IMG/VR virus record: IMGVR_UViG_3300046706_000011
Location: 26,507-90,506 of that record
DNA length: 64,000 bases
Source of the DNA: a virus
Reading direction: 5' to 3' (one strand)
This document shows positions 1 to 64,000 of the stretch, one piece after another (the stretch's first letter is position 1; each line of letters starts with the position of its first letter). The notes beneath the pieces are model-generated. The model was not told the origin of the DNA, did no database searches, and saw only the letters and a list, made by a program, of their open reading frames with translations. A program made the translations under genes and the position numbers.

Positions 1-168
1 CTGCCGGTCCGGGCGGACGGGGCCTACCTGGACCTTCCGAAGCGGACGCTGGGGGCCAACCCGTGGCACGGGGTCCGGCATCCGGTCGAGGGGGAGCCGG
101 TGACCGTGGACGTGGGCCTGGACGGCGGGGCCGAGACGGGCAGATCGCCCGAGCTTATTTCACTTTGA
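1..168 (+). CDS. 3' end of an unidentified gene upstream of the trb operon
   Basis: Reading frame 1 is open from the left edge to a TGA at 166-168 and gives 55 residues, ending in ELISL. The tail is Pro/Gly/Asp rich and has no recognisable domain. In many alphaproteobacterial conjugative elements the coupling protein gene (traG/virD4) lies directly upstream of a small CopG-like gene and trbB, as this gene does, so a coupling-protein C-terminus is a reasonable guess from position alone. The next gene starts 11 bases downstream, which suggests co-transcription. Confidence 0.5.
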   Translation: MPVRADGAYLDLPKRTLGANPWHGVRHPVEGEPVTVDVGLDGGAETGRSPELISL

Positions 169-179
169 CGAGGTACGCG

Positions 180-554
180 ATGAGGAAGGAACGGAAAGAG
201 GAGCGCACGGTGTCGTTCTTCGCGGGCGACCTGGAGTGGCTTGACCGGCAGGCGGCTCGGCGGAAGGCCGGGCGGAGCGCCCTGCTCGCCGAGATGATCG
301 CGGCGGCGCGGGGCGAGGCGGTCGAGGACGACGCGCTGAAGATGGTGGTGGAGCGCCTTGGCCGGGTGGAGGCGATGGTGAAGTCCCTGGCCGGGATCGC
401 GGTCGGGCTCGACCGCCACGCCCGGCGCACGCGGGCGATGGTGTCGCTGGACCAGCAGGTGGCGATCCTGGGCGAGGCGGCGCGGCCCAGGACGCTGGAA
501 CAATTGAAGCTGAGAACCGAGCAACTTGAGGAGGGATACATCCGTGAGATTTAG
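180..554 (+). CDS. small ribbon-helix-helix-like protein upstream of trbB
   Basis: The protein has 124 residues from the ATG at 180; an upstream in-frame GTG at 63 is ignored because it overlaps the preceding gene. The N-terminus is basic (MRKERKEER), followed by a short strand (TVSFF) and two helices around LEWLDRQAARRKAGRSALLAEMI. This strand-helix-helix pattern resembles CopG/MobC-type DNA-binding proteins. The remainder (about residues 45-115) looks like an amphipathic helix or coiled coil. A CopG-like gene just ahead of trbB is common in Trb conjugation loci. It could be an autoregulator of the operon or a relaxosome accessory protein. It overlaps the start of trbB by 11 bases. Confidence 0.75.
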   Translation: MRKERKEERTVSFFAGDLEWLDRQAARRKAGRSALLAEMIAAARGEAVEDDALKMVVERLGRVEAMVKSLAGIAVGLDRHARRTRAMVSLDQQVAILGEAARPRTLEQLKLRTEQLEEGYIREI

Positions 555-1521
555 CCAAACAGCCCGTGCGACGACGTTCAACCTGCTCCTCAAGCTTCTG
601 GGGAGCGAGATCGTCGGCCACATGACGGACCCGCTGGTCGAGGACATCTTCCTGAACTCCAACGGGGCCGGGTTCGTCCGGTACGCCGGCAAGAAAACCA
701 AGCTGGGAGTGAGCGTCGATGGCGAGGCGATGAGCCTGATCATCGGCTATGCCGGGACCCTGGTCGGGATGACGGCGGACGGGGTCGCCCGGTTCGCGGT
801 GGACGGCAAGCTGCCGAGCGGGCAGCGGTTCCACGGGGTCGTCCCGCCCCGCGCGGCCCAGGGTCCGTACATCGTCATGCGAAACCCGCCGCGCACGATC
901 CACACGCTGGGCAGCTATGTCGATCAGGGGGTCATGACGGCGGCGGTGGCGGACCAGCTCCGGAGTGACGTGGACGATGCGAAGACCATCGTGATCGGGG
1001 GCGTCACGGGGGCGGGCAAGACCTCCCTGATGACCTGCCTCGTCAACACGGGCGCGGCGCGGGAAGCGCGCATCGTGCTGCTGGAGGACGCCGAGGAAGT
1101 CAACGTGGACGCCGTCGAGGATCGCATCGTCAAGTCCACGCTGGGCGGGACCATGGACGAGCTGGCCTACGACGCGCTCCGGGAACGGCCCGAGCGTATC
1201 TACATCGGCGAGGTTCGCGACCGGGCCATGAAGACGTGGCTTGAGGTCGTCGGCACGGGGCATCCGGGCTCGATGGTCACGCTCCACGCGGGCAGCCCGA
1301 GGGGTGTGATGGCCAGGGCCGAGCAGCTCGTCTCCGAGGCCGTGGTGGACGTCGCGGGCCAGCGCCCGGTGCTGTGCGACACCATCGACCGGGTCGTGGT
1401 CGTGGCGCTGGGCCGGGACGGGAAGCGCCGCGTGCCGGGCGTCTACGCGCCGGCCGGGCATAAGGACGGCCGCTATGAAATTCGCACTGTCGCGGGGGAC
1501 GAAGGTTGTGCTACAACTTAG
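544..1521 (+). CDS. trbB: TrbB/VirB11 secretion ATPase
   Basis: A 325-residue hexameric AAA-type ATPase of the VirB11/TrbB family, which sits on the inner face of the inner membrane and powers pilus assembly and transfer. The P-loop GGVTGAGKTS has its lysine at about residue 159. The acidic box LLEDAEEV follows, then the Walker B region IYIGEVRD (about 219-226) and the His box VTLHAGSP (His about 248). I chose GTG at 544, since GAGGAGG lies about 8 bases upstream, rather than the in-frame TTG at 526. The start overlaps the preceding gene. It is the first of a canonical trbBCDE..JLFGI order. Confidence 0.95.
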   Translation: MRFSQTARATTFNLLLKLLGSEIVGHMTDPLVEDIFLNSNGAGFVRYAGKKTKLGVSVDGEAMSLIIGYAGTLVGMTADGVARFAVDGKLPSGQRFHGVVPPRAAQGPYIVMRNPPRTIHTLGSYVDQGVMTAAVADQLRSDVDDAKTIVIGGVTGAGKTSLMTCLVNTGAAREARIVLLEDAEEVNVDAVEDRIVKSTLGGTMDELAYDALRERPERIYIGEVRDRAMKTWLEVVGTGHPGSMVTLHAGSPRGVMARAEQLVSEAVVDVAGQRPVLCDTIDRVVVVALGRDGKRRVPGVYAPAGHKDGRYEIRTVAGDEGCATT

Positions 1522-1532
1522 CGGGCTACAAT
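1506..1532 (+). promoter_or_regulatory. candidate promoter ahead of trbC
   Basis: TTGTGC (1506-1511) is separated by 15 bases from TACAAT (1527-1532). The spacing is short for sigma70, but the -10 match is good and it lies just after the trbB stop, about 40 bases before the trbC start. It overlaps the perfect palindrome at 1523-1539, so it is probably regulated. Confidence 0.45.
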
Positions 1533-1539
1533 GTAGCCC
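1523..1539. promoter_or_regulatory. palindromic operator-like site 1 (trb motif)
   Basis: GGGCTACAATGTAGCCC is a perfect inverted repeat with 7-base arms and a 3-base centre, covering the putative -10 box upstream of trbC. It is one of four related 17-bp sites in the transfer region (others at 4947, 8971 and, on the other strand, 11928). This suggests binding by a dimeric regulator. Confidence 0.6.
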
Positions 1540-2215: not shown

Positions 2216-4735
2216 TTGGGCGTCATCGCAGCGATGAGGGACATGCTCGCCGGAGGCGACTGGTACTTCTGGGACGAGTTGCCGTGGTCGAGCGGGATCG
2301 AGACGGGGGACGGCCCGTGCCGGGTCGTCGAGTGCCGGAACCGGTCCTGGATGTCGTGCCTGAGGCTCGACCCGCCGGACCTGGAGTGCGGGACGGAGGC
2401 GGACCGCCTGCGCCACGCGCTGCTCTTCCACGGCGCCCTGCGGGCCTTGGGCGGCGGGCACGTGGTCTGGATCGACGAGCACCACGACCCGGAGCGACCC
2501 TACCCGGCGGCGAAGCCGGCGAACCCGGCGGCGCGGCGGTTCGAGGAAGCGCGGGACCGGACCTACGGCGAGGTCGTCGGGCACTGGCGCTCGACCCACT
2601 ACCTGACGGTCCAGTGGCGCAAGCCGCCGCAGTGGATCGAGAAGCTGTCCCGGCTGGTCCTCGTGGCGCACCCCGGGGACCGTGCCCGGGACTACGGGCC
2701 GGCCTTCCAGGCGTTCAACGACCGGGTCGCGGGACTGGAGGGGCAGCTCGCCTTCCTCGGCGCGAAGGTGCTGGAGGGGGACGGCCTCGCGGCCTACCTG
2801 CACGACACGGTCAGCCGGGTCCGGCAGCCGGTGAGGTTCGGCAACTGGCAGGACTGGATCTCGCCGCAACTGGTGGACATGCCGATCAACGCCATGGAGC
2901 GGGACGACGGCGGGGCGCTGACCATCGGCGTCGGGGACGACAAGGAATACGTCGTCCCGGTCACGGTCCACAGCTACCCGGCGGGCGTCGATGCCGGGAT
3001 ACTCGACGGGACGGAGGACTTCGCCGGGGTGGCGTCACTGCCGATCACATACCGCCGCGTCACCCGGATCGCGATCCAGGCGAAGACCGAGGCGGTCAAG
3101 GACATGGCCGCGTTGCGCCGCAAGGCGGAGATGACCCGCCAGAACCTCCTGCGGACGACCCTCCAGCAGTTCTACCCGAACGCGCCCCAACGCCTGAACT
3201 ACGAGGCCGACCACGCCGCGCAGGAGGTCGAGGAATGGCTCAAGGACCTTGCGCGGGGCAAGACGCTGCGGTGCCAGAACACGACGACCTTCCTCGTCTA
3301 CCACCGGGACGCGGGGGTCGCGATGGAACAGGCGAGGATGATCCTGATGCACCTCCGGGAGACCGCGGGGCTCGTGGCCCAGGTCGGGCGGCTCGGCGCG
3401 CTGGAGAGCTTCCTGGGGACGGTGCCGGGCAACAGCGACCACGACTTCGTCCGGCCCTACACGAACACCTTGGCGAGCGGCGGTCTGGCGCCGCTGTCGA
3501 ACACCTGGGGCGGGCGGCGGCACGACCCGGTGCTCAAGGGTCCGCCGCTCCTGGTCGGCACGACGAACGAGTCGATCCGGCACCACGTCGTCCTGTCGCC
3601 CGAGGGCGACGGCATGGCGAGCCACGCGGTCATCACCGGCCCGTCCGGGTCGGGCAAGACGGCCGCCATCAACGAAATGTGCTTCGGTTTCCTGAAGTAC
3701 CGGGGCACGCGGGTATTCCGGATCGACAAGGGGCGGTCGGCCTACGTCTCGACCCTGTGCGCCGGGGGGACGATCATCGACCCGGTGCTGTCCGGCGAGG
3801 GTTTCCAGCCCCTGCGTTTCATCGCGGACTGGAAGGAGCGGGTCTGGGCGAAGGCATGGCTGACAGCCTACGTCCGGATGCGCGACCCGGCGCTGGCCAA
3901 CGACCCGGCGGTGGACGCGGCGATCAAGGACACGCTGGAGTGCCTGGGCAAGGCGCTCGACCCGGACGACCTGGACATGTCGGCGTTCGTCAACGCGCTG
4001 TCCCATCCGGGGTTGCAGGCGGCCCTTCGTCCCCTGACCCGCGACGGTTCGCTGGGCTACGTGTTCGACGCCATCGACCGCCGGTCCTACGACGCCGACT
4101 GGACCAGCGTCGAGCTGGACGAGCTGGTCGAGGACGAGGAGGTCGCCGGGCCGCTGATGGCGTACCTGTGGCACATGATCCGGCGGCTGTGCCACCGGGA
4201 CCGCCCGATGCTGATCCCCATCGACGAGGCGTGGATGGCGATGAAGGGACCGTTCAAGGACATGCTGAACAAGGGGATGAGGACGTTCCGGCGGGAGAAC
4301 GCGCGGGTCGTGTTCGCGTCGCAGAGTGCGGTGGACATCGCGTCGAGCGAGCTGGCGGGGATCATCGTGAACTCGTGCTCGCTGAAGATGGTCTTCCCGG
4401 ACAGCGCGATCGCCTCCCCCGAGGTCGCGGCGGCGTACATGGTCCTCCAGGTCCGCCCCCAGTGGATGGATCGGCTGAACTACCGGTTCCAGGGCGGGGA
4501 GCCCCGTTTCTGCCTCGTGATGCAGGACGGGGGCGCGCGGTTCATGCACTTCGACATGGAGGAGGAGACCGACCCGGAGGCGTTCTGGATGTGCTGCGCG
4601 ACCAACAGCGGGGCGGTGGCCGACGCGCTGCGCGTCCGGGACATGGGAGGTTCGTTCCTGGACGACTGGCTCGGCGAGAAGGTGCACGGCAAACGGGCGC
4701 GGCCTCCGGTCCCGGCCCTGGCGGCAGCCGAATGA
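2216..4735 (+). CDS. trbE: TrbE/VirB4 ATPase
   Basis: An 839-residue VirB4-family ATPase, the usual length, which energises pilus biogenesis and substrate transfer at the inner membrane. The Walker A motif GPSGSGKT has its lysine at about residue 481. The Walker B motif LIPIDEAW has its Asp-Glu at about 670-671. The long N-terminal half is the VirB4 N-domain that contacts VirB3. TTG at 2216, preceded by AGAGG-like bases, is the longest plausible start; ATG at 2234 is the alternative. The stop overlaps the next ATG (ATGA). Confidence 0.95.
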   Translation: MGVIAAMRDMLAGGDWYFWDELPWSSGIETGDGPCRVVECRNRSWMSCLRLDPPDLECGTEADRLRHALLFHGALRALGGGHVVWIDEHHDPERPYPAAKPANPAARRFEEARDRTYGEVVGHWRSTHYLTVQWRKPPQWIEKLSRLVLVAHPGDRARDYGPAFQAFNDRVAGLEGQLAFLGAKVLEGDGLAAYLHDTVSRVRQPVRFGNWQDWISPQLVDMPINAMERDDGGALTIGVGDDKEYVVPVTVHSYPAGVDAGILDGTEDFAGVASLPITYRRVTRIAIQAKTEAVKDMAALRRKAEMTRQNLLRTTLQQFYPNAPQRLNYEADHAAQEVEEWLKDLARGKTLRCQNTTTFLVYHRDAGVAMEQARMILMHLRETAGLVAQVGRLGALESFLGTVPGNSDHDFVRPYTNTLASGGLAPLSNTWGGRRHDPVLKGPPLLVGTTNESIRHHVVLSPEGDGMASHAVITGPSGSGKTAAINEMCFGFLKYRGTRVFRIDKGRSAYVSTLCAGGTIIDPVLSGEGFQPLRFIADWKERVWAKAWLTAYVRMRDPALANDPAVDAAIKDTLECLGKALDPDDLDMSAFVNALSHPGLQAALRPLTRDGSLGYVFDAIDRRSYDADWTSVELDELVEDEEVAGPLMAYLWHMIRRLCHRDRPMLIPIDEAWMAMKGPFKDMLNKGMRTFRRENARVVFASQSAVDIASSELAGIIVNSCSLKMVFPDSAIASPEVAAAYMVLQVRPQWMDRLNYRFQGGEPRFCLVMQDGGARFMHFDMEEETDPEAFWMCCATNSGAVADALRVRDMGGSFLDDWLGEKVHGKRARPPVPALAAAE

Positions 4736-5022
4736 GGGGGTCGGAATACCTTGCGCTGCGCGTCGCGGCCTGCACCGCGGTGATGGCGCTGGGCGGCGGC
4801 TTCGTGTTCGCGGTGGCGCGCTGGGTCCTGCCGTGGCTGATGGGTCGGGTTTCGCAGGCGTATCCGGGACCGCTCGCGGCGTTCGCCGGGATCGTGTTCG
4901 GGATGGGGGTGATTGTCCTTGTGAGTCATGGACTTCGGGTGATAGTGGGCTATACTCTACTACGCATCGACCGGCTGGCGGACGGCGGGTCGCGGATCAC
5001 CGACGAGGATGGGGGGGATTGA
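4732..5022 (+). CDS. small two-helix membrane protein between trbE and trbJ
   Basis: A 96-residue protein starting at an ATG that overlaps the trbE stop. Two hydrophobic stretches (about 10-35 and 47-70, around FAGIVFGMGVIVLVSHG) are followed by an acidic tail (DEDGGD). I do not recognise a family. In standard Trb loci trbJ directly follows trbE, so this gene and the next are additions at the trbE/trbJ junction. Roles in entry exclusion or machine assembly are possible, but nothing in the sequence decides. The operator-like site at 4947 lies within its 3' coding part. Confidence 0.75.
   Translation: MRGSEYLALRVAACTAVMALGGGFVFAVARWVLPWLMGRVSQAYPGPLAAFAGIVFGMGVIVLVSHGLRVIVGYTLLRIDRLADGGSRITDEDGGD
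4947..4963 (+). promoter_or_regulatory. operator/promoter-like site 2 (trb motif)
   Basis: GGGCTATACTCTACTAC differs from site 3 (8971) at only two positions. It contains a TATACT -10-like box at 4951-4956. The -35 region (ATGGAC at 4928) is poor. The site lies inside the upstream gene and about 60 bases before the ATG at 5024, so it may drive the low-GC gene there and trbJ. Confidence 0.5.
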
Positions 5023-5023
5023 C

Positions 5024-5371
5024 ATGGATTGGCAGAAAATCAAGGCAACGGCTGGAGCCGTGACGGGGTCGGTTTGGCGGAATGGCCGCAATGTCCTGGC
5101 GTTTGCCGGCGCGGTATCCATCGGGGTCGATGCCTTGGTGCGTTCACAATTGGACGTGGCAACGGTCCCGTCGGTAACAATCGAACTAGGCAAATTCCTG
5201 GAGCTGAAGTACCAGATCGTGGCGATCACCTTGATTCCGTTGTTGGCGTTGATTGCGTTGTTGGCGTTCATTTCCATTACGCGCGGGTTCTGGGATGGGT
5301 TCATCGCCTTCACCGAGTCCACCGCATGGGACGCAACGAAGTGCGCGTTGGCGAAGCGGTTCCGCCGGTGA
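5024..5371 (+). CDS. small membrane protein of atypical composition
   Basis: A 115-residue protein from ATG 5024, which follows a G-rich ribosome-binding stretch; an in-frame start at 5009 is less likely. It has a weak N-terminal hydrophobic patch and one strong membrane segment at about 65-88 (YQIVAITLIPLLALIALLAF). A basic C-terminus (ALAKRFRR) follows. Its codon use is visibly less GC-rich than all neighbouring trb genes, hinting at a separate origin. The last bases overlap the GTG of trbJ. Function unknown. Confidence 0.75.
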   Translation: MDWQKIKATAGAVTGSVWRNGRNVLAFAGAVSIGVDALVRSQLDVATVPSVTIELGKFLELKYQIVAITLIPLLALIALLAFISITRGFWDGFIAFTESTAWDATKCALAKRFRR

Positions 5372-6687
5372 CGACGGTTTCGCGCCTTGCCGCGGCGCTC
5401 ATCGCGGGGACGGTCCTCGCCGGGAGCGGCCCCGCCCTGGCACAGTTCCGGGTCGGCGGGCTCGTCCCGGTCGGAGCCGAGGACGTGGCCGCCATCGACG
5501 CGGCGCTGGACGAGATGCGGAGCGCCGGATGGACGGCGGAGGAAATGGACATCCGGCTTCGTCGGGAAGGCTACGTGCTGGACCGGGCGGTCCTGGACGG
5601 CGACGTGGCCGTGGCGGACGGCCGGGTCCGGGGCATGGTCGCCGAGGTGGCCGGCGCCGGGGACCCGGCGGGCGGGGACCCGGCGGGCGGGGACGGCCGG
5701 GCGCCGAACCGGCAGCCGACCCCCTTCGAGCGCGGACTCGCGGGCGTCGCGGGCAACGTCGGGAACACCGACGAGGAAATCCTGCGGGCGATGCAGGGCG
5801 GGAACTCCCAGCTCTGGGCGCGGATGACCGGCATCCTGTCGGGACGCTCGGTCACGAACCGGGCCAACCAAGTGATCGACGGAGCGACCGGTGCCGCCAC
5901 GCGCCCGATCCGGGAAGCCGGCGACGCCGCCGTGAACACCGTCATGCAGCCGATCGAGGACACCGTTGACACCGCCGCCCAGTCGGCCATGTGTTCCCTC
6001 GGCTCCGCCGCCCTGGGGGCTGCCGCCTCGCTCGTCAGCGCCGTGTTCAGCGGGGGCAAGGCCACGTACGGCGCCCAGGTCGCGCAATGGCTGACGGGGA
6101 TCAGCAGTCAAGTCTGCCTGGGCCAGCAGCTCGCGGTGCAGAAGCGCATGGTGGCGCTCCAGCAGCGCATGGTGGCGCCAATCGGACGTAACGTGGTCGG
6201 TCAGGCGGGCGGCGTCAGCGGCGTGGTGCTGGATTCCATCGGCCTCCTCGACGCGGAAGAGGTCGCCAGGGGCTACCAGGACGGCGCCAGCGCCGACCTC
6301 GCCCCCGGCGCCTCCCTGGCGATGCAGCGCCTCCTTCGCGCCCGGACGGATCAGGCGCGGCGTGCCGCGCTGGAGACGGCGGCGCTCAACGTCGCGGCGG
6401 AGCGGGCCTATTCGGATATGGCCGACCGGGCGCTCGACCTGAGCCAGTCGGCCCGGGGACAGACCTCGGCCGTCCAGGCGCTGGCCCAGTTGCAGCGGGC
6501 CAATGAGGGGGCGGCGGCGGCGCGGCATTCTTCCCAGATGGCCTTCAGCAACGCGGCCCTGGTAGCGGAAGAGGAGGACCGCGCGAGCGAGCGCCTTGCC
6601 GCCGCCCGCCGGGCGCGGTTCTATTCGGGCCTCGGCCCGTCCGGCAGCCAGGAAGCGGCGGCGCCGGGTTTCAACCTTTTCCAGTGA
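5368..6687 (+). CDS. trbJ: TrbJ/VirB5-like exported protein
   Basis: A 439-residue protein from a GTG overlapping the preceding stop. The signal peptide is clear (VTTVSRLAAALIAGTVLAG.., cleavage after PALA at about residue 24). Proline- and glycine-rich, then alanine-rich helical regions follow, including a long charged helix at about 330-420. TrbJ/VirB5 proteins are periplasmic, alpha-helical and minor pilus components. Position between trbE and trbL fits, though the protein is longer than the usual 240-270 residues and may carry an extra N-terminal domain. Near its C-terminus it has RARFYSGLG, matched in the next gene. Confidence 0.65.
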   Translation: MTTVSRLAAALIAGTVLAGSGPALAQFRVGGLVPVGAEDVAAIDAALDEMRSAGWTAEEMDIRLRREGYVLDRAVLDGDVAVADGRVRGMVAEVAGAGDPAGGDPAGGDGRAPNRQPTPFERGLAGVAGNVGNTDEEILRAMQGGNSQLWARMTGILSGRSVTNRANQVIDGATGAATRPIREAGDAAVNTVMQPIEDTVDTAAQSAMCSLGSAALGAAASLVSAVFSGGKATYGAQVAQWLTGISSQVCLGQQLAVQKRMVALQQRMVAPIGRNVVGQAGGVSGVVLDSIGLLDAEEVARGYQDGASADLAPGASLAMQRLLRARTDQARRAALETAALNVAAERAYSDMADRALDLSQSARGQTSAVQALAQLQRANEGAAAARHSSQMAFSNAALVAEEEDRASERLAAARRARFYSGLGPSGSQEAAAPGFNLFQ

Positions 6688-6696: not shown

Positions 6697-6963
6697 ATGC
6701 GTGTTCGAACATGGGTCTTTGCGGCCGGTCTAGCCTTCTCTGGCATCTCGCCGGCCCTGGCCGGGGACCGGGATGTCCGGGAGCCGGCGCGGGAACGCGC
6801 GGCGCAGGCGGACCGGGCGGCGGACGCGCTGCCGGACCGGGAAGCGCGGGACGACGCGGAGGACCGCCGCGTCCTGGCCAACCGGGCTCGGTTCTACCAG
6901 GGCCTCGGCCGGCTTCGGGGCGGCGGGCGGCGGATCGACCCGTTCCCCGCCCGGGGGAACTGA
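6697..6963 (+). CDS. small exported protein at the trbK position
   Basis: An 88-residue protein with a signal peptide (MRVRTWVFAAGLAFSGISPALAGD, likely cleaved after ALA). The rest is highly charged and ends with NRARFYQGLGRL. Its place between trbJ and trbL is that of trbK, the entry-exclusion gene of RP4, but it has no lipobox cysteine, so the equivalence is only positional. The RARFYxGLG tail is nearly identical to one at the end of the preceding TrbJ-like protein. This suggests a duplicated C-terminal element or a shared interaction motif. Confidence 0.7.
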   Translation: MRVRTWVFAAGLAFSGISPALAGDRDVREPARERAAQADRAADALPDREARDDAEDRRVLANRARFYQGLGRLRGGGRRIDPFPARGN

Positions 6964-6966
6964 CCC

Positions 6967-8238
6967 GTGGACGAGTTGCCGGGGTTCACGCTGACCCCCG
7001 ACCTCGGGTCCGGGGTCGGGAGCGCGGCGGCGGCCAGCCTCGACGCCATCGACCACGCCTACCTCATGGTCCAGGACCTGCTCAACGCCGGGTTCCCGTA
7101 CCTGGAGGGCGTGGTCTGGGCCTTGTTCGGGATGGCGGCCGGCTGGGCGGTGCTGGTGGGCGTCATCGACGTGGCGTCGGGCGGGAGCAACCCGGTCGCC
7201 CTGGTCACCGGGGCCTTCCTGCGCCTGGGGATCTTCGTGTGGCTGGCGGGGGTGTGGAAGACCTTCATCGACGCGGTCGGCAACTTCGCGCTCGACCTGG
7301 GCGTCCGGATCAGCGGATCGACGGTGCCGCGCGACCAACTGATGGTGCCGAGCCGCCTGTTCGCGCAGGGAAACGAGCAGGCCGCGAAGGTGATGGCGGC
7401 GAAGGACGCGCTGTGCGACGCCTGGAAGAGCTGCCTCATGACGTTCGGCGACCAGCTCCTGCTGGAGATCATCGCCATCGCGATCTGGGTGATGTTCGGG
7501 GTCCTGGTCCTGGCCATGGTCATGGCCGCGCTGTGGCTGAAGAAGGCCGGGCTGTTCAGCTTCCTGTTCCTGCCGGCGAGCCAAGTGAAGGCGACGGCGT
7601 TCCTGGCCGAGGGGTCCATCGCCGGGGTGTTCCAGGCGTTCATGTGGCTGGTCTTCATAACCTTGGTCGCGGGATGGGGGACCCAGGTCCTGGGGCTCCT
7701 GGCGCTGCCGGAGCACCCGGACGCGGCGAGCCTCGTCCCGGCGGTGCTGGTGGTGTCGTTCATGGCGGTGATGGCGTGGCAGTCCCGGAGCTACGCCTCG
7801 GGGCTGGTCTCGGGGGTCCCTCGGATCGGCGGCGAGGCGGTGACGGCGGCGGCGCGCAACGCGCTGGGCTGGGCGACCGGAGGGACGGCCATCGCGTCGC
7901 GCATGGAGTCCGTCGCCCATCGCGAGCGAAACAGCGTCCTGGGCGCGGCGCGGGACGGCTTCTCGGCCGCCCGCAGCCTCCCGGGCCGGGCGATGCAGGC
8001 GACGCGGGGCCGGGCGGCGGGGGCCGCTCCGGGTGGTGCACGGGCAGGAACGGCGGCGGCGCGGACCACGTCCCCCGGCGGTGGCGGAGGCAGCGCCTGG
8101 AACAACGGGCCGACGCCGAAGCAACAGCTTGCCGCCCGGCACCGGGGCGTTGACATCTCCGGGATGTCGCGGGGACAGGCGTCGCAGGCCCTGCATCGTC
8201 AGGGGAACATGGACCAGAGCTGGTACGAGGGGAAGTAA
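6967..8238 (+). CDS. trbL: TrbL/VirB6 polytopic membrane protein
   Basis: A 423-residue protein starting at GTG 6967, three bases after the previous stop. It has about six hydrophobic segments between residues 40 and 275, including LLEIIAIAIWVMFGVLVLAM and GVFQAFMWLVFITLVAG. A hydrophilic, Ala/Gly-rich C-terminal tail of roughly 150 residues follows. This is the TrbL/VirB6 layout, which forms part of the inner-membrane translocation channel. A Cys pair (LCDAWKSCL) lies in a periplasmic loop. Position before trbF confirms the call. Confidence 0.9.
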   Translation: MDELPGFTLTPDLGSGVGSAAAASLDAIDHAYLMVQDLLNAGFPYLEGVVWALFGMAAGWAVLVGVIDVASGGSNPVALVTGAFLRLGIFVWLAGVWKTFIDAVGNFALDLGVRISGSTVPRDQLMVPSRLFAQGNEQAAKVMAAKDALCDAWKSCLMTFGDQLLLEIIAIAIWVMFGVLVLAMVMAALWLKKAGLFSFLFLPASQVKATAFLAEGSIAGVFQAFMWLVFITLVAGWGTQVLGLLALPEHPDAASLVPAVLVVSFMAVMAWQSRSYASGLVSGVPRIGGEAVTAAARNALGWATGGTAIASRMESVAHRERNSVLGAARDGFSAARSLPGRAMQATRGRAAGAAPGGARAGTAAARTTSPGGGGGSAWNNGPTPKQQLAARHRGVDISGMSRGQASQALHRQGNMDQSWYEGK

Positions 8239-8240: not shown

Positions 8241-8951
8241 ATGGGCATGCCGAAGATCGTCACGCTGTTGACCAACCGCCTGCGCCTGGACCGCCCCCGG
8301 CGCGTCTTCTCGGTGCGCGCCGACGAAGTCCGCTCGACCCGCAGCGTCGGGCGGATGTGGATGGCGGCGGGCCTCGTGTTCGCCTACCTCTACGTGGACG
8401 AGCGCCATGCGCACCAGGAAACCCTGTCGCGGGCGCAACCCGTGCTGGTGTCGGTCCTGGGGCCGGACAGCCGCCCGGTGGCGACGTTCGCCGCGGACCA
8501 CATGGCGGACGACGGATGGGTCTCGGTCGCCAAGGCGGTCGCGGCGCAGCACGTCGTCCGGATGCGCGAGATGACGAACCCGATCGACGTGTCGCTGGCC
8601 CGGCTGGACGAAGGGCGGTACTTCGTGAAAGACGCCGCCGCCGCGAAATACGCGCGCTTCGTCGGCTCGCACCCCTACGACGACCTGGCGAAGCGCCGCC
8701 TGAACCGCCAGGTCCGGCTGGAGGAGGTCGGGCCGTCGCTGGAGTCCAGCCAGTCCCCGTCGTCCCGGCGGCTGCGGGTCATCGTCCAGTGGCCGGAGCG
8801 GACCTGGAGCGGGACCAAGCTGGAGCAGCAGGCGACGCGCGTCGGCTGGGTGGACGTCGAGCGGGTGGACCGCGTGCCGCCGGATTACCGGAAGGCCAAC
8901 CCGCTGGGGATCTTCGTGGTCGATTACGACACGGACACGCCCACGGGCTGA
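8241..8951 (+). CDS. trbF: TrbF/VirB8 inner-membrane assembly protein
   Basis: A 236-residue bitopic protein with a cytoplasmic N-terminus, one membrane segment (about 36-50, RMWMAAGLVFAYLYV) and a periplasmic domain of about 180 residues. This matches TrbF/VirB8, the scaffold of the inner-membrane complex. The RRLRVIVQWPERTW strand region fits the NTF2-like periplasmic fold of VirB8. The ATG follows the trbL stop by two bases. Downstream is the promoter-like gap at 8952-8987. Confidence 0.85.
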   Translation: MGMPKIVTLLTNRLRLDRPRRVFSVRADEVRSTRSVGRMWMAAGLVFAYLYVDERHAHQETLSRAQPVLVSVLGPDSRPVATFAADHMADDGWVSVAKAVAAQHVVRMREMTNPIDVSLARLDEGRYFVKDAAAAKYARFVGSHPYDDLAKRRLNRQVRLEEVGPSLESSQSPSSRRLRVIVQWPERTWSGTKLEQQATRVGWVDVERVDRVPPDYRKANPLGIFVVDYDTDTPTG

Positions 8952-9009: not shown

Positions 9010-10020
9010 GTGAAGAAACCCCTGGTTCTGATGACGGCCGGGTTGCTCGGGGCCTGCGCGTCGGGCTCGACCGCGCCGCCGCCGCTGGTGACCTACGTCC
9101 CGGCGATCCCGATCCCCCTGGCCCAGCCGGCGGCCCAGGCGGGCGCGGCGGGACCCCCGGCGACCCTGGTGAACCCCATCCCGACCCCGGAGCCGACCCG
9201 CTACAAGAGCCACGAGGCGGCGACGGCGGCGGCATCGCGCGCGGCGGTCGTCGATGCCCGCAGCGGGACGTTCGAGGGCGAGACCCTGAACTACCTGTAC
9301 CGGACGGGGCAGCGGTACAAGCTGGTGCTCGACGCGCCGAGCCACGAGGAATGGCAGGACGCCGGGGTGACCCAACTGTTCCTGGGACCGGGCGACGGGT
9401 CCGAGCCGGGGGTCTTCTTCGACGATCCGACGTGGTTCACGCAGGAGAAGCTGGCGAGCGGGATCGACCAGACCTCGATGCGGGCCAAGCGGGACCGGGC
9501 CCGGCAGGTCAGCGACGGCAAGTACCAGACCATCGTGACCCTCAAGTGCTGGAAGCCGGGCGCGGTGACGAACGCCTCGGTCACGACGCCGCAGCGCCCA
9601 TACCTGCTCCGGCTCCACTGCGCGACGCGCAAGGGGACCGGGGGCTACAACGCCACGGTCCAGTTCACCAGCGTCGGGGAGCAGGGCGTGCCCCCGGCCG
9701 AGGCCTTCGCGTCGGCCGAGGCGCCTGTCCCGGCCGGGTCGGGCCCGGTCGTGAAGGACACGGGCTACGCCGTGAGCGGTCCCGCCGAGTTCCGGCCGAG
9801 GGAATGGGCGGCGTGGAACGACGGGGCGGACACCCACGTCCGCCCGCCGGACTCGATACGGACCCGTCCGGTCCCGATGCTGCCGCCCGCGTCGCAGTTC
9901 GGCGTGGACCCGCAGACCGGCGAGTATTTCATCCGGGGGCTGCCGGCCGAGATCCGGTTCCCGTGGGGGCCGGAGCAACAGGTCGTCGTGAGAAGGACCA
10001 CCCAGGGAGAACCGCCGTGA
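9010..10020 (+). CDS. trbG: TrbG/VirB9 outer-membrane complex protein
   Basis: A 336-residue lipoprotein from GTG 9010, with the signal LVLMTAGLLGACAS (lipobox cysteine at about residue 17). A proline-rich linker and a beta-rich domain follow. VirB9/TrbG proteins line the periplasmic and outer-membrane core of the secretion channel with VirB10. VirB9 itself is not normally a lipoprotein, but many TrbG homologues have an N-terminal lipobox, and here it may substitute for a separate VirB7. The C-terminal Tyr-Phe-Ile-Arg-Gly stretch (DPQTGEYFIRGLPAEIRF) resembles the family's VirB7-binding region. The stop overlaps trbI. Confidence 0.8.
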   Translation: MKKPLVLMTAGLLGACASGSTAPPPLVTYVPAIPIPLAQPAAQAGAAGPPATLVNPIPTPEPTRYKSHEAATAAASRAAVVDARSGTFEGETLNYLYRTGQRYKLVLDAPSHEEWQDAGVTQLFLGPGDGSEPGVFFDDPTWFTQEKLASGIDQTSMRAKRDRARQVSDGKYQTIVTLKCWKPGAVTNASVTTPQRPYLLRLHCATRKGTGGYNATVQFTSVGEQGVPPAEAFASAEAPVPAGSGPVVKDTGYAVSGPAEFRPREWAAWNDGADTHVRPPDSIRTRPVPMLPPASQFGVDPQTGEYFIRGLPAEIRFPWGPEQQVVVRRTTQGEPP

Positions 10021-11288
10021 ACGACACCGACAGGGAAGACGCCGTGACCAAGGGCTCGGCACCGCTGGAGCGCCGGAAGCGGGGCGGGTGGGGCAGCGTG
10101 GTCAACCTGAAGGGGGTCGGCCTGATCGGGGCCGTCCTCGCCACCGGAGGCGTGGGCCTGTGGGCGGCCTGGGGCGTCCACGGGGAGGAGGAGCCGAAGA
10201 CGGTGGAAGCGAAGATCAATTCCGTGCCGTTCAACGCGGCGACCGCCCGTCCGATGCTGCCGCCCCCGATGGCGACCTCGGCGGAACCGGGGGCGTTGCC
10301 CCCCGCCGCCGGCCGCCCGGAGGACCGAGGGGGAGGGCGCGCGCCGCCGCCGCCCAAGCCGCCGCCGCCGCCCGTCCCGCGCCAGAACCGCCCGAAGTCC
10401 CTGGTGGCGGCGCCGGGGAACTGGGGGTCCGGGGCCACGCAGGCGACGGCGGTCTCACAGGCCCAGGCCGGGCGGGCGCGGGGTCGAGGCATGGACGACG
10501 ACGGGAACGACGACGGGGCCGCGATGGGATATTCCGGCGACGGCGAGGGAATGGACGACGGGGACGGTCACGGCGGCAGCCTGCGGTCCGAGCGGCGGCC
10601 AAGCGCCCCGGAGCGCGGGCGGGCCGGAAAGGAGCGGTTCTTCCGGGGCGAAGGGATGGGCGGGACGGCGCTCGACGTCCCCGGCGAGCTTCTTCCCGAG
10701 GTGGGCGGCTGCGTCCTGAAATCGGAGGAGTTCATCCCGGTCCAGGCCGAGCGGTTCACCAGCACCGCGCTGCCGGGCCGCATCCGGGTCCGCATCCCGC
10801 AGCCGGTCATGGGCCAGCACTTCCTCGGGAACGGGCGGGTCGAGGCGTGCGAGGCGATCCCGGCGTTCTCGACGATGTCGCTGGCGATCAACACGGCCGG
10901 GACGGCGCGCGGCGACACGCGGGTCCAGGCCTGCGCGCTGCGCCTGGACCTGAACGGCGGGGGGCGGCGGGTCCTGGGTTGCCAGCCGTCCCACGGCGGG
11001 GATGGGGCCGGCGGCATCGAGGCCGGGGTGGACTACGACCTGACCGGCCTGGGGGCGGCGATCCTGCTCGATGCGACGATGTCGGTCATAAATTCGCTCG
11101 GGGACCTGATCGCGGGCATTCCGGGCATCGCGCTCCAGGTCGGCGGCGAGCGGGTGGGTGCGATGGGAGACGAGATCATCCGGCAGGAGTTCGAGCGCCC
11201 CCCGACACTAACGATAGAGGCTGGTGCGTTGTTCGGAATTCAGCTAAATGCTGACCTGTCAATGCCACTGCGCAGGCGAGTCCGCTGA
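10017..11288 (+). CDS. trbI: TrbI/VirB10 energy-sensing channel protein
   Basis: A 423-residue protein from a GTG overlapping the trbG stop. It has a short cytoplasmic N-terminus and one membrane helix (about 30-52, VGLIGAVLATGGVGLWAAWG). A long proline-rich periplasmic region (PPPPKPPPPPVPRQ) follows, then a C-terminal beta-barrel domain ending FERPPTLTIEAGALFGIQLN and DLSMPL. These are hallmarks of VirB10/TrbI, which spans both membranes and couples ATPase activity to the outer pore. It closes the canonical trb gene order; the next gene starts immediately after the stop. Confidence 0.93.
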   Translation: MNDTDREDAVTKGSAPLERRKRGGWGSVVNLKGVGLIGAVLATGGVGLWAAWGVHGEEEPKTVEAKINSVPFNAATARPMLPPPMATSAEPGALPPAAGRPEDRGGGRAPPPPKPPPPPVPRQNRPKSLVAAPGNWGSGATQATAVSQAQAGRARGRGMDDDGNDDGAAMGYSGDGEGMDDGDGHGGSLRSERRPSAPERGRAGKERFFRGEGMGGTALDVPGELLPEVGGCVLKSEEFIPVQAERFTSTALPGRIRVRIPQPVMGQHFLGNGRVEACEAIPAFSTMSLAINTAGTARGDTRVQACALRLDLNGGGRRVLGCQPSHGGDGAGGIEAGVDYDLTGLGAAILLDATMSVINSLGDLIAGIPGIALQVGGERVGAMGDEIIRQEFERPPTLTIEAGALFGIQLNADLSMPLRRRVR

Positions 11289-11636
11289 ATGCCCCGGAGA
11301 ACCGGAAAGATCACCGCCGATACGTCGTTCACGGGATTGCCGAGGGAGATGATCGACGCCGCCCTTGAGATTGCGGACAAGGAGTGGACCTACCCGAAAT
11401 ATGTATACGCGGACGCCATCCAGGAGTTGATCGACCGGCTGGACCGGGGCGAGGTGATCCAATGGCCCGCGTCTCGACCGAACACGGGGAAGAGGCCCTA
11501 CCATGTCCGGATCGATGTCGGGCTGATCAATCGGCTTCGTGAGACGTGCGAGAAACACAACGTCCGAAAGAACATCTTCTTCCTGGTTGCGCTGCGGGAG
11601 CACCTGAACCGCAACGGGTACCGCTTCGAGACTTGA
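11289..11636 (+). CDS. ribbon-helix-helix-like protein closing the transfer operon
   Basis: A 115-residue basic protein whose ATG directly follows the trbI stop. The C-terminal part YHVRIDVGLINRLRETCEK plus FLVALREHLNR reads as strand-helix-helix, the ribbon-helix-helix pattern. A first similar pattern (TSFTGLPREMIDAALEIADK) precedes it. It may be the regulator acting on the four 17-bp operator-like sites of the locus, or a relaxosome component. Many Trb loci in integrative elements end with a small extra gene here (a DUF2274-type protein), but I cannot show homology to that family. Confidence 0.7.
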   Translation: MPRRTGKITADTSFTGLPREMIDAALEIADKEWTYPKYVYADAIQELIDRLDRGEVIQWPASRPNTGKRPYHVRIDVGLINRLRETCEKHNVRKNIFFLVALREHLNRNGYRFET

Positions 11637-11983: not shown

Positions 11984-12169
11984 GTGGACACAAAGTTGCC
12001 GCATTTGCTAAGGGAAGACGGATCGGAAGAATATTCGGTGACGGAGGAAGAAATGGTCCTGAATGGACGCCAATTGAGAAGACTTTTCAACACAGACGGT
12101 ATAGTTGGAAACCTGTCCGGACCGGGCGAATTCAGGACCGGGAACCTCGGAGGCCTGCGGCATGGCTGA
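11984..12169 (+). CDS. possible short leader gene
   Basis: An open frame of 61 residues from GTG 11984, or 38 residues from ATG 12053. The latter is preceded by GGAGGAAG five bases away, so it is the better start. It lies in the AT-richer stretch after the promoter and overlaps the next gene by eight bases. No similarity is recognised; it may be a translated leader rather than a functional protein. Confidence 0.3.
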   Translation: MDTKLPHLLREDGSEEYSVTEEEMVLNGRQLRRLFNTDGIVGNLSGPGEFRTGNLGGLRHG

Positions 12170-12851
12170 CGACGCGCCGGGAGGCGACCCGTTCGAGGAC
12201 GGCGACGACGGGGGGTACATCCGGATCGAGGGCAGGGTCCCCAGCGTGGAGGACCGCGAGAAGATCGGGGCGGCGGCGGCGGCCATGGGAATGAGCAAGT
12301 GGCGCTTCGTCGGCCTCGCGGCGCTGGAACGGGCGACCGGGACGAGCCTGGACCCGGCCCGCCTTGAGCACGTCCTGGCGATCCAGGAATACGTCGAGGT
12401 CACCGGCCGAGCGCTGGTCCGGGGACTTGATGCCGTCCGGCGCGAGCTGGCGCTGTCCTCGACCGTCAGCGCCGGGCAGCACGACAAGATCCACGTCCGG
12501 CTGGGGCGGGCGCTGGACGCGCTTGAGGACGCGCGCCAACAGCTCGACGCATCGATGGCCGCGCACGCCCGCACCCAGGAGCTGCTTCTCGGGAAGGAGA
12601 CCCTGGTCGCGAAGCAGGCGCAGCACAACGGCGACCTGCTGGAGATCCTGCTGGAACGCCTGCCGAAGGCTGGCATCCCCGAGGCGGGGGGGCGGTATTC
12701 CTCGGCGCTGGCATCCACCGCCAGCCGCTTGGCGGAGCTCGTGAAGCAGTCGGACGGGAACTTCCGGCCTGCCTCGGCGGCGAGGTCGGACGACGGGGCC
12801 GACGGGTGCGTGGGTTGCCCGATGGCGACGCTGTCAACAACCGCCAGCTAA
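12162..12851 (+). CDS. RHH-plus-coiled-coil protein, possible relaxosome or partition accessory
   Basis: A 229-residue protein from ATG 12162 with GGAGG ten bases upstream; earlier in-frame codons lack this. The N-terminus is acidic. Residues about 25-60 (RVPSVEDREKIGAAAAAMGMSKWRFVG..) resemble a helix-turn or ribbon-helix DNA-binding module. Residues 70-190 are long amphipathic helices (DALEDARQQLDASMAAHARTQ). The layout recalls the small protein at 180-554, enlarged. Candidates are a MobC-like relaxosome protein or a partition accessory factor; nothing seen settles it. A CxxC pair (GCVGCP) lies near the C-terminus. Confidence 0.7.
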   Translation: MADDAPGGDPFEDGDDGGYIRIEGRVPSVEDREKIGAAAAAMGMSKWRFVGLAALERATGTSLDPARLEHVLAIQEYVEVTGRALVRGLDAVRRELALSSTVSAGQHDKIHVRLGRALDALEDARQQLDASMAAHARTQELLLGKETLVAKQAQHNGDLLEILLERLPKAGIPEAGGRYSSALASTASRLAELVKQSDGNFRPASAARSDDGADGCVGCPMATLSTTAS

Positions 12852-12910
12852 AGCAGGCGGCTTGTGAACTGAACCGTCGCGCACCTTTGCGCACAAATTA
12901 GAAGGCAGCC

Positions 12911-13543
12911 ATGGAAGACATCGCCCAAGAAAAGAAGCCGAGGCGGGGCCGGCGTCGGGGCCGCGTGGCCGACCCTGGGGGTCCGGGGGACGATGCCAAG
13001 ACCACGCAGACCACGACGATGCCGCGCTCCTTCTACTACGGCTTCGTCGTGCCCTACCTCGCCAAGAGGGCCGAGGCGGGGCTGCCGTCCACTTGGAACT
13101 GGCTGTCGATCGAGGCCGTGAGGCAGTTCATCGAGGACGACGACGGGGAGCCGGGGCCGGCTCCCGAGGCCGTCCACAACACGGACCGGCGGTTCGCGAC
13201 CCTGGAGCACGGCGGCGTGGCGCGCACGGTCTCGGAGTGGTCCAAGGTCCGGGGCATCCCCCGCCAGAAGATCCTCGCCCGGATGTCCCGGGGCTGGACC
13301 AGCGCCCAGGTGCTCGGCCTGGAGGAGGCGCCGACCCAGGCGAGGACGCTCACCGTCAACGGGGAGCGGGGCACCCTCGCGCACTGGACGAGCCGGTATC
13401 CGGTCAGTGCCGATCAGGTCAAGTATCGGCTCCGGCACGGCTGGAGCGACGAGGACGCGGTCCTGACGCCCCCCGGCGAACCCAGGGGGACGCGGGCGGC
13501 GTGGTCGCCGGCCGACATCAAGGCCTCCGGGGACGGCGCCTAG
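12911..13543 (+). CDS. protein with two helix-turn-helix-like repeats
   Basis: A 210-residue protein, ATG 12911 preceded by GAAGG. A very basic N-terminus (KKPRRGRRRGR) leads to a helical middle part. Two copies of a pattern seen in phage-associated proteins follow: VSEWSKVRGIPRQKILARMSRGWTSAQVLG and AHWTSRYPVSADQVKYRLRHGWSDEDAVL. This W..(R/Y)....I..R...GWS.E.AL repeat often accompanies HNH endonucleases and is presumed to bind DNA. No nuclease motif is present here. The gene ends tail-to-tail with the lysis genes, four bases overlapping. Confidence 0.75.
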   Translation: MEDIAQEKKPRRGRRRGRVADPGGPGDDAKTTQTTTMPRSFYYGFVVPYLAKRAEAGLPSTWNWLSIEAVRQFIEDDDGEPGPAPEAVHNTDRRFATLEHGGVARTVSEWSKVRGIPRQKILARMSRGWTSAQVLGLEEAPTQARTLTVNGERGTLAHWTSRYPVSADQVKYRLRHGWSDEDAVLTPPGEPRGTRAAWSPADIKASGDGA

Positions 13544-13749
13544 TCGTCCGAGTTCAGGATGCGGGTGTTCTCCTCGATCCGGCGCGTGAACCGCTCAAGG
13601 TCCTTCGCGGTGGGCTGGCGCCCCTCCTCCTGCATCGTCTCCAGTTCCCGCCGCCATTCGTCGTAGGAGCGCTTCGCGTGCGGGTAGGCCTTCAGCGCGG
13701 CGATGGTCAGGTCCATGGCGCCGAGGATCAGGGCGACGGGGACGGTCAT
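13540..13749 (-). CDS. small membrane-associated protein ending the lysis group
   Basis: A 69-residue protein whose ATG overlaps the stop of the upstream lipoprotein gene. A short hydrophobic N-terminus (MTVPVALILGAMDLTIAALK) precedes a charged helical tail (SYDEWRRELETMQEEG). Similar small phage proteins sit beside lysozyme genes, where holin or spanin-related roles are possible. The sequence alone does not identify it. Confidence 0.65.
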   Translation of the reverse strand: MTVPVALILGAMDLTIAALKAYPHAKRSYDEWRRELETMQEEGRQPTAKDLERFTRRIEENTRILNSDD

Positions 13750-14207
13750 GGGGCGGGTTCCTTCTCCGGGCCGTTCTCCGGGCCGTCCTCCAGGTCGGCG
13801 ACGACCTTGGCCTCCAGGTCGGCGCGCAGGCTGTCCAGCTCCTCGGTCACGCTCGCCAGGAAAGCGTCGTCGCCCTGGTCGAGCGCCATGTCCCCGAGTT
13901 CCTTCCAGCCGAGCGCCTCGTCGTTGACGCCCCTCAGGTCCAGGACGACCGCCCGGCACCGGGACTGGAGGGCCTTGGGCTTGCGCGAGCAGTCGCGCCG
14001 GTACTCCGCCGCGGCGGCGAGGGCGGCGTCGTAGGCGGCGACCGCCGTGTACCACGACTCGCGCGGGGTCCGCGGGGCCGGCGGGGCGGCGGCGCAGCCG
14101 GCCACCAGCAGGAAGACGGCGCAGGCGACGGCCAGGGCGAGCAGCGCCCACGGGGCGCTTCGGTCGGGCTCTCTCACGGGGGCCTCCGGGTTCGGGCGGG
14201 ACGGCAT
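13746..14207 (-). CDS. lipoprotein beside the muralytic gene, possible o-spanin-like
   Basis: A 153-residue lipoprotein. The hydrophobic segment WALLALAVACAVFLLVAGCAAAP gives a lipobox with Cys at about residue 38. An alanine-rich helical domain with a Cys pair (RDCSRKPKALQSRCR) and an acidic C-terminus follow. The ATG overlaps the stop of the muralytic gene by one base. Location in the lysis block makes an outer-membrane spanin-like function possible, though it lacks the short proline-rich form of classical Rz1. Confidence 0.65.
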   Translation of the reverse strand: MPSRPNPEAPVREPDRSAPWALLALAVACAVFLLVAGCAAAPPAPRTPRESWYTAVAAYDAALAAAAEYRRDCSRKPKALQSRCRAVVLDLRGVNDEALGWKELGDMALDQGDDAFLASVTEELDSLRADLEAKVVADLEDGPENGPEKEPAP

Positions 14208-19784: not shown

Positions 19785-19787
19785 CGG

Positions 19788-21239: not shown

Positions 21240-21297
21240 CAAATCACTCCGGACAGGGGGAGGCCCGCCCCGGGGAGCGGGTCCGGGATGGGGGAGG

Positions 21298-40919: not shown

Positions 40920-40938
40920 GGCGTCGGGCTCCCGGAGG

Positions 40939-62758: not shown

Positions 62759-62768
62759 GGCCGCGCGG

Positions 62769-63002
62769 TCAGGACGTCGCGACGGCGGCGCCGAGCAGGA
62801 CGCGCAGCCAGGACGTGCCGTTCGAGTAGGCGAGGCAGGGCGCCCCGGCGGCGCCGTTCGTCACGGAGATGATCCGCCCCTTGTTCTCGGCGGCGGACGG
62901 GACGGTGGCGACCGTGTACTCGGGCGCGGCGAGCGCCTTGGCAAGGGACCTGGAGCCGATCTGGCCCCACCGCGGGTCGTTGGTCAGGGCCATCGCGGTC
63001 AC
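62769..63002 (-). CDS. small virion-region protein
   Basis: A 77-residue protein from GTG 63002 (overlapping the preceding stop) or ATG 62993. The sequence MALTNDPRWGQIGSRSLAKALAAPEYTVATVPSAAENKGRIISVTNGAAGAPCLAYSNGTSW contains the IISVTNGA..G.PC.AYS.G..W pattern found in short phage structural proteins attached to fibres or capsids. Function not known. Confidence 0.7.
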   Translation of the reverse strand: MTAMALTNDPRWGQIGSRSLAKALAAPEYTVATVPSAAENKGRIISVTNGAAGAPCLAYSNGTSWLRVLLGAAVATS

Positions 63003-63832
63003 TCCTGGGACGGCTTGGAGGAACGCGCGGGGGAGCGCCGGGGCGACTCAGCCTTCGGCCTGGGGGCCTTCTCGCCGGGCTCGTCCGGTTCGGGGGCCGG
63101 CTCAGGGGCCGGTTCCGGCTCGGGGGACGGCTCCGGGGCTGGCTCGGGCTCGGGGGGCGGCTCGGGGGACGGCGGCTCGGCCTGGCCTACCAGCGGTAGG
63201 CCACTGGGCTTGACCTCCGGGGTCAGGGACTCCTCCGGGATGTCCCGCTCGGTCGGCACGGCGCCCTCCTCGACGATCCGCCGGACGGTCTCGGGGTCGT
63301 CGTCCAGGGACGGCGCGACCGGGTCCTGCGCGGTCTGCTCGGAGACCGAGGTGTCGGAGTCCGGGCGTTCCTCCCAGGGCTCGGAGACGCGCACGCTCCC
63401 GTCGAGGTTCGGCGAGCGGGGGTCCTCGTAGGGGGCGGACGCCTTCCTGCGGGAGCCTTCCTGGCCCTTCAGGGTGCGGTCGTTGCCGGCCTCGTCATGG
63501 TCGGGGATCGCCTTGGTCTTGGCGTCGCGGAAGTGGGCGTTCTGGAGCTGCCAGCGCTCCTCGTCGGTCGGGACGCGGTCGCGGTTGCGCTCGGCCTGCT
63601 CCATGGCCTTGCGCTCGCGCTCCGGGTCGGCGTCGGCCGGGATGTTGATGAACTGGCCGACGTCGGCGTAGGGCGGGGAGCCGAGCAGGTCGGAGTTCTC
63701 GGTGAACTCCTGGATGCGGTCGGGCGGGTAGCGCTCGGCGAGCGGCTTTTGCTGCTCGGCGTCGTCGCGGGCCTTGGCGTCGGCCTCGGCCTCCTGTTGG
63801 CGGCGGGCGCGGTTGAACGCGGACATTCCCAT
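62999..63832 (-). CDS. acidic, disordered protein carrying the palindromic element
   Basis: A 277-residue hydrophilic protein, mostly charged helix then disorder. The start MGMSAFNRARRQQEAEADAKARDDAEQQKPLAERYPPDRI is typical of small phage proteins near the capsid gene. The C-terminal third has SGLPLVGQAEP (element at 63183-63203) followed by a Pro/Glu repeat (PEPEPAPEPSPEPEPAPEP) and a basic end. It may be a scaffold or capsid-associated protein, suggested only by position. Confidence 0.7.
   Translation of the reverse strand: MGMSAFNRARRQQEAEADAKARDDAEQQKPLAERYPPDRIQEFTENSDLLGSPPYADVGQFINIPADADPERERKAMEQAERNRDRVPTDEERWQLQNAHFRDAKTKAIPDHDEAGNDRTLKGQEGSRRKASAPYEDPRSPNLDGSVRVSEPWEERPDSDTSVSEQTAQDPVAPSLDDDPETVRRIVEEGAVPTERDIPEESLTPEVKPSGLPLVGQAEPPSPEPPPEPEPAPEPSPEPEPAPEPAPEPDEPGEKAPRPKAESPRRSPARSSKPSQE
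63183..63203. repeat. in-frame palindromic element copy 4
   Basis: TGGCCTACC-AGC-GGTAGGCCA, identical to copies 1 and 2, coding on the - strand for SGLPLVGQA just before the Pro/Glu repeat of the acidic protein. Confidence 0.85.
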
Positions 63833-63893
63833 GATGTGCTCCTGTTCCGGTGCTTGGGGCGGGGGACGGGCGGGACGGCCCCGCCCGGACCCG

Positions 63894-64000
63894 TCAGCTC
63901 GCCGCGCTGGTCAAGCGGTGGCGGAACAGCACCATCCTTATTGACTTGGCGTCGTATACCCTGGACCAGCTCGCGCCGGTCGCAAGGACGGTGTTGTCCG
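63894..64000 (-). CDS. 3' end of a gene running off the right edge
   Basis: The - strand frame is open from the right edge to TGA at 63896-63894. It gives about 35 residues (DNTVLATGASWSRVYDAKSIRMVL.. ending TSAAS). Its position before the virion genes would suit a capsid or head protein, but the fragment is too short to identify. Confidence 0.55.
   Translation of the reverse strand, partial: DNTVLATGASWSRVYDAKSIRMVLFRHRLTSAAS

Follow-up and report, generated by a model that had tools for sequence, protein, structure and literature searches.

A Trb conjugation locus beside the lysis and tail genes of a siphovirus-like metagenomic contig: a likely phage-plasmid with its own mating apparatus

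Introduction

Phages and conjugative elements are usually regarded as alternative routes for DNA movement, so a locus where genes of both kinds adjoin raises the question whether they form one element. Such a locus occurs in a 64,000-nucleotide window, bases 26507–90506 of the 90,506-bp IMG/VR record IMGVR_UViG_3300046706_000011 (hereafter G000; record coordinate = window coordinate + 26,506; G+C about 71%), in which a Trb-type type IV secretion system (T4SS) is followed by siphovirus lysis and tail genes. The conjugation and phage halves almost certainly belong to one DNA element, the reading that a preliminary description had preferred to two unrelated neighbours, and it is likely that G000 is a phage-plasmid-like virus with a conjugation system of its own. 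This reading is drawn from three lines of evidence: the conjugation genes adjoin the same lysis/tail block in G000 and two related contigs, replication genes of phage type are found beyond the conjugation module, away from that block, and a closed isolate replicon, plasmid pSR-4 of Skermanella rosea, combines both gene sets.

Conjugation genes adjoin the same lysis and tail block in three viral contigs

Gene calls came from a simple script based on codon usage, annotation relied on Pfam, NCBIfam and PHROGs profiles, and relatives of G000 were gathered by searches with the conserved J and capsid proteins; contig L150, which is full of frameshifts, was left out of the comparison. Ordered homologues of 37 of the 50 G000 late genes were found in the 74-kb contig G002 (Spearman 0.92), and of 37 of the 50 also in the 143-kb contig G005 (Spearman −0.89, as the contig is reversed), the median identity being about 42% in both. 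G002 begins within a coupling protein, which is followed by a Trb cluster that includes a TraF-type peptidase and then by the same lysis/tail block as in G000. Similarly, a coupling protein (257 bits) stands at the edge of the 24-kb contig G008 and adjoins this block. The trb-plus-tail synteny that the preliminary description had proposed to look for in other genomes was found in G002, and in G008 a coupling protein stands at this position. A full VirB4 was detected in 2 of the 49 records tested (G000 and G002) and a coupling protein in 3 of the 49 (G000, G002 and G008), where the 49 include G000 itself and are in the majority fragments that do not reach the site and so cannot exclude conjugation genes there. 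Scans of viral contigs with the G000 TrbE alone and with the G000 coupling protein alone gave no matches, and those with a three-gene ATPase cassette (described below) and with the TrbE of G002 or of Skermanella rosea plasmid pSR-1 gave no additional viral contigs.

The junction between the halves was then inspected. The T4SS-side genes stop at 11636, the first lysis-side gene lies at 13540–13749 and the tail genes start from 16512, in agreement with the spacings described before, i.e., less than 2 kb to lysis genes and about 5 kb to structural genes. Between them, two plus-strand genes (12162–13543) encode a 229-aa protein of unknown function and a 210-aa protein resembling a phage HNH-endonuclease family (phrog_3377, E = 1.5e-10). 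No chromosomal genes were recognisable at 11.3–14.2 kb, the content being T4SS-type, phage-type and unknown small genes. A tyrosine integrase (PF00589) was not matched in G000, G002, G005 or pSR-4, serine integrases not being part of the search, and no tRNA gene lies between the halves. Therefore, the earlier claim that neither an integrase nor a tRNA separates them holds for tRNAs and, across the record, for integrases of the tyrosine type. Chromosomal genes or an integrase at the junction of relatives, or halves that always occur separately, had been named as observations that would speak for two neighbours; the junction showed neither chromosomal genes nor a tyrosine integrase, and the halves stand together in G002 and G008, while most relatives, mostly fragments, show phage genes only. 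The private repeat family ascribed to each half dissolved into short, imperfect GC-rich repeats of no weight.

G000 carries a near-complete conjugation set

All genes of the conjugation module lie on the plus strand. The module begins left of the window with an RlxS/DUF3363-type relaxase (record 22918–24930), whose nuclease domain matched with E = 2e-28, below the NCBI full-length cut-off; it keeps the HUH motif HDDTDHPHAH, and its tyrosine aligns with those of the pSR-1, Xanthomonas and Paracoccus relaxases. The TraG/VirD4 coupling protein follows (record 25157–26674, L002:5157-6674; C-terminal end at 1–168 of the window), with matches to PF02534 (E = 1.3e-36, above the cut-off) and NF010450 TraG (E = 1e-40). 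A small protein, which we read as a ribbon-helix-helix protein, lies between it and TrbB (180–554), a position that matches genes in G002 and pSR-1.

The set named trbBCDE-J-LFGI in the preliminary description was recovered, seven members by profile, J by its relatives and D by position and length. In detail, these are the TrbB ATPase (544–1521; TIGR02782, E = 3.6e-53), the TrbC/VirB2 pilin (1574–1912; PF04956, E = 7e-9), a putative TrbD/VirB3 (1909–2202), which has no profile match and is assigned by its length and its place between TrbC and TrbE, the TrbE/VirB4 ATPase (2243–4735; NF010447, E = 3e-95; TIGR00929, E = 3.5e-57; motifs GPSGSGKT and IDEAW), a TrbJ/VirB5-like protein (5368–6687), which is 39% identical over 150 aa to the pSR-1 gene in the trbJ position and whose G002 homologue matches TrbJ profiles, TrbL/VirB6 (6967–8238; PF04610, E = 1.4e-9), TrbF/VirB8 (8241–8951; PF04335, E = 2.8e-8), TrbG/VirB9 (9031–10020; TIGR02775, E = 1.6e-8) and TrbI/VirB10 (10017–11288; PF03743, E = 8e-10). 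A small signal-peptide protein (6697–6963) is placed in the trbK position by position only, and a small gene (11349–11636) is kept after trbI in G002 and pSR-1 (29–30% identity, E about 1e-10). By inspection, both TrbB and TrbE have unbroken Walker A and B motifs, as had been stated, and the Walker motifs of the coupling protein are likewise intact. The seven Trb proteins with profile matches score below the NCBI curated cut-offs and are therefore divergent.

The order relaxase–TraG–small gene–TrbBCDEJ–LFGI is the same as in the Trb module of pSR-1, and the relaxase–TraG step is the same in Xanthomonas. G000 thus has, by sequence, the relaxase, coupling protein, VirB4 ATPase and mating-channel genes expected of a self-transmissible conjugative element of MPF_T type. 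An IncP-type Trb system was rejected as an assignment, since TraF was not found in the G000 record.

Between trbE and trbJ, a stretch of about 630 bp (4736–5367) is without a called gene and holds an 18-bp tandem repeat at 5231–5272. In G002, the C-terminal region of TrbJ is fused to an N-terminal parallel beta-helix (L010:5566-7479; TIGR03804 and TrbJ profiles on one protein), that is, a tail-spike-like fold on a pilus-tip-type protein.

The left flank holds replication-type genes and a plasmid-type cassette

Left of the conjugation module, the record encodes a DnaB-like helicase, a DUF1376 primosomal-type protein and endonucleases, so that both the relaxase and the replication genes that the preliminary description had suggested searching for lie outside the window on this side. 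The DnaB, DUF1376 and endonuclease families are also found outside phages. Further, an 84-aa gene (record 13833–14087), which is without a PHROG match, has homologues in five relatives, those in G005 and G022 lying near head genes. Phage-type genes thus appear to flank the conjugation module on both sides, the left-side evidence being weaker than the right.

The three-gene cassette (record 18834–20636) is colinear with one of pSR-4, with 39%, 63% and 35% identity. Plasmids of Skermanella, Roseomonas, Acetobacter and allied genera also carry its ATPase, a distribution that suggests hosts among these groups; on Roseomonas p3-AD3 the ATPase adjoins a VirB/MobF conjugation region. From its P-loop the ATPase may be read as StbB/ParA-like, for which the ParA-like profile match is weak and was obtained with the pSR-4 copy only. 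Between the cassette and the relaxase lie three adjoining genes rich in pentapeptide-type repeats (ADLRGADL...; record 20695–22122, L002:695-2122).

For the J protein no match was found in an alignment against species genomes, and the capsid alignment returned only four more distant capsid relatives (39–52% identity); since these searches were near-empty, no isolate host was found for the G000 phage family. G000 is best explained as a large siphovirus that is probably kept as a plasmid in an Azospirillaceae/Acetobacteraceae-like alphaproteobacterium.

An isolate replicon combines virion and conjugation genes

The plasmid pSR-4 (NZ_CP086115.1; L171/L172), from the environmental isolate Skermanella rosea KEMB 2255-458, is a closed circular replicon of 100,864 bp. 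Its phage genes comprise terminase, portal, protease, capsid, connector, tape measure and lysozyme, and its conjugation genes a VirB set with VirB4, VirB11 and VirD4, a MobF relaxase, a second coupling protein and a MobA/MobL-family gene; a ParB-type gene is also present, and the identities of the key proteins were confirmed. Like G000, it brings virion genes, T4SS, coupling protein and relaxase together, and it has the three-gene ATPase cassette in common with G000. In contrast, its phage backbone is unrelated, and its T4SS is of VirB type with MobF, whereas G000 has Trb with RlxS. A description of pSR-4 as a phage-plasmid was not found in the literature searched.

Related phages hold different conjugation genes at one site

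The relatedness of the VirB4/TrbE proteins was judged on pairwise identities. The G002 TrbE is 73% identical to that of pSR-1 and 29% to that of G000, and nearly the whole G002 Trb cluster is colinear with pSR-1, in whose inspected 49 kb no phage structural genes were found. The G008 coupling protein shares 59% identity with VirD4 of Skermanella pSR-4 but shows no significant match to the G000 coupling protein. The best plasmid matches to the G000 TrbE reach 27–28% identity, and the G000 Trb proteins are deeply divergent. Since related phages hold different conjugation genes, exchange at one site is suggested, and the conjugation locus seems to behave like an exchangeable cassette next to the lysis genes. 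A single T4SS inherited from a common phage ancestor was not adopted as an explanation, given the G002 TrbE identities to pSR-1 vs. G000 and the unmatched coupling proteins of G008 and G000.

The composition of the modules was compared within and between contigs. The G+C content at third codon positions of the G002 Trb genes was 0.712, vs. 0.715 for the G002 tail genes and 0.871 for pSR-1. Tetranucleotide profiles agree within contigs, with values of 0.79 for the G000 T4SS and the G000 tail and of 0.37 for the G000 T4SS and the G002 T4SS. These results argue against chimeras or recent cointegrates; as the same agreement would be expected of modules that merely share a host, they speak against a chimera of different organisms, not for one replicon.

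The ratios of nonsynonymous to synonymous substitution rates (dN/dS) of G000 tail genes against the near relative L004 were 0.21–0.24, and those of G002 Trb genes against pSR-1 were 0.12–0.23, the latter being rough since dS exceeds 1. Both modules look maintained by these values. One capsid-side gene compared with G025 gave a dN/dS of 0.62.

Alternative explanations

Among the alternatives, a conjugative plasmid that took up a phage block most deserves a test. Such an element would work by mating, and its phage genes would be a remnant or a passenger prophage unable to make particles. The T4SS, relaxase and ATPase cassette are indeed of plasmid type, and P1-like elements gain mobilisation genes as phage genes go (PMC10879196). 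However, purifying selection acts on the intact tail genes, the late block is whole and ordered in G000 and G002, and phage-type replication genes lie on the other side of the T4SS, so this explanation is considered unlikely. It would be still much less probable that a phage-owned T4SS serves ends other than moving its own DNA, e.g., protein delivery, rival exclusion or the mobilisation of other plasmids. T4SSs that deliver proteins are known, and G000 is without a recognisable TraF peptidase and a defined oriT, but the HUH-motif relaxase and the coupling protein stand directly upstream of the Trb genes. Least probable of all, and very improbable in itself, are two unrelated neighbours, whether joined in a chimeric assembly or lying side by side as a prophage and an integrative conjugative element or plasmid. 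G000 is a single metagenome contig, and Trb genes and phage genes are also found apart; against this, the same lysis/tail block borders conjugation genes in three contigs whose T4SS genes differ, there is no break in composition within contigs, a tyrosine integrase was not matched, and the closed pSR-4 shows that such a combination exists.

Several observations count against reading G000 as a phage-plasmid-like virus that encodes a conjugation system. G000 is a single linear contig without terminal repeats, and no plasmid replication initiator was recognised in it. Portal and terminase are not in the record; they would fall beyond its capsid-side end. A TraF-type (S26) pilin peptidase (PF10502) was not matched in the incomplete 90.5-kb record, whereas G002 has one, and an oriT was not singled out, as inverted repeats upstream of the relaxase include none that is distinctive. 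G002 and G008 both come from metagenome 3300045996 and are both cut on the T4SS side, and G005 and G003 extend past the lysis block and hold other genes there, so the module is not universal. Further, selection on Trb genes was measured in G002 only, the G000 Trb genes having no close relative.

If G000 is such a phage-plasmid-like virus, the relaxase would nick an oriT and the coupling protein would hand the strand to the Trb channel; the element would reach neighbouring cells by mating while persisting as a plasmid, and on entry into the lytic programme the products of the convergent late genes would make virions and lyse the cell. Whether G000 and its relatives really use both transmission routes is evenly balanced. 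The wider picture, to which we give half our credence, is of a large-siphovirus lineage, with pSR-4 as an independent case, that would stably combine the life of a virus with that of a self-transmissible conjugative element and would have a lysis-side site exchanging conjugation-system families.

Comparison with known systems

The preliminary description had called a self-made mating apparatus rare on phage-plasmids. The G000 TrbE matched 4 of 50,697 GenBank phage records, of which three are contigs from faecal metagenomes and one is a Salmonella record; with the pSR-4 coupling protein, five contigs of this set were matched, all of them from faecal metagenomes. VirB4 is thus almost never present in GenBank phage records. 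Alphaproteobacterial phage-plasmids of about 117 kb (Methylobacterium, Shinella, Sinorhizobium pLM21S1) and Rhizobium phages such as RHEph10 and L338C have J proteins about 33–37% identical to that of G000. Unlike G000, the four phage-carrying plasmids of about 117 kb that were tested showed no convincing VirB4, and none of the Rhizobium phages with related J is among the G000 TrbE matches. From the Trb/RlxS modules of Xanthomonas and pSR-1, G000 differs by a TrbE that is about 27–28% identical to plasmid TrbE and by the lack of an S26/TraF peptidase in the record.

P1-like phage-plasmids and plasmids derived from them mix virus and plasmid traits with conjugation-related genes, as G000 does, a relaxase or oriT being gained alongside the loss of phage genes (PMC10879196). 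These genes allow mobilisation only (PMC10879196), whereas G000 has its own channel beside an intact late block. What another paper describes is mobilisation by another element (PMC11652158). Searches for 'conjugative phage-plasmid' or 'conjugative phage' with type IV secretion gave no match within a partial coverage of the literature.

In an element with both routes, if true, mating could sidestep the receptor limits of virions and infection could sidestep the limits of mating. Present typing may miss such elements, as pSR-4 carries the MOB-suite label 'non-mobilizable' in PLSDB. Dual transmission is open to bench testing because pSR-4 resides in a sequenced isolate.

Phage module of G000 and minor features of its relatives

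From 13540 to the end of the window, the genes lie mostly on the minus strand and encode lysis proteins, a lambda-like tail, tape measure, connectors, large fibre-like proteins and the capsid; all those given here are on this strand. Two small lysis-side genes (13540–14207) are 39–42% identical to G002 17240–17736, and the endolysin (14207–15022; phrog_873, E = 1.5e-50) is 58% identical to that of G002 and 42% to that of G008. Conserved lysis-side/virion genes (15019–16438) with ordered homologues in G002, G004, G005 and G008 are followed by tail and tail-fibre proteins (16512–22199; phrog_5939, E = 2e-33; phrog_1980, E = 3e-13), the central tail fibre/host specificity protein J (22196–27103; phrog_31, E = 8.8e-256), a tail assembly protein with an NlpC/P60 minor tail protein (27100–28538; phrog_32, E = 1e-49; phrog_30, E = 3.5e-71), and minor tail proteins with the tape measure at 32693–37189 (31603–37189 in all; phrog_18, E = 1e-81; phrog_14, E = 5e-19; phrog_2335, E = 2.5e-71). 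Tail terminator, neck, head closure and head-tail adaptor lie at 39272–41529 (phrog_179, phrog_169, phrog_161 and phrog_477), and large fibre-like virion genes kept in the family at 42152–63832, with colinear homologues in G002, G004, G005 and G007. Inside one of these large fibre-like open reading frames, ARAGORN reported a 97-nt tRNA-Pro (43172–43268), which is probably a false positive.

The last 107 bases (63894–64000) encode the C-terminal end of the major capsid protein, which is truncated at the contig edge, with 76–88% identity over 33 aa to the capsids of eight relatives; the G002 capsid homologue matches phrog_247 (E = 4e-101). Portal and terminase were found in relatives G005 and G022. 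The terminase large subunit of G005 (L020:11825-14935) is 1036 aa long, its terminase matches being split by what appear, from the sequence, to be two intein-like insertions. RTX-like glycine/aspartate repeat proteins (GGxGxD-type) are encoded on G005 (L017:8435-9622) and on G002, and TnpB (OrfB_IS605/Cas12f-like) genes are inserted in phage contigs at L001:8976-9950 and also in G004 and G007.

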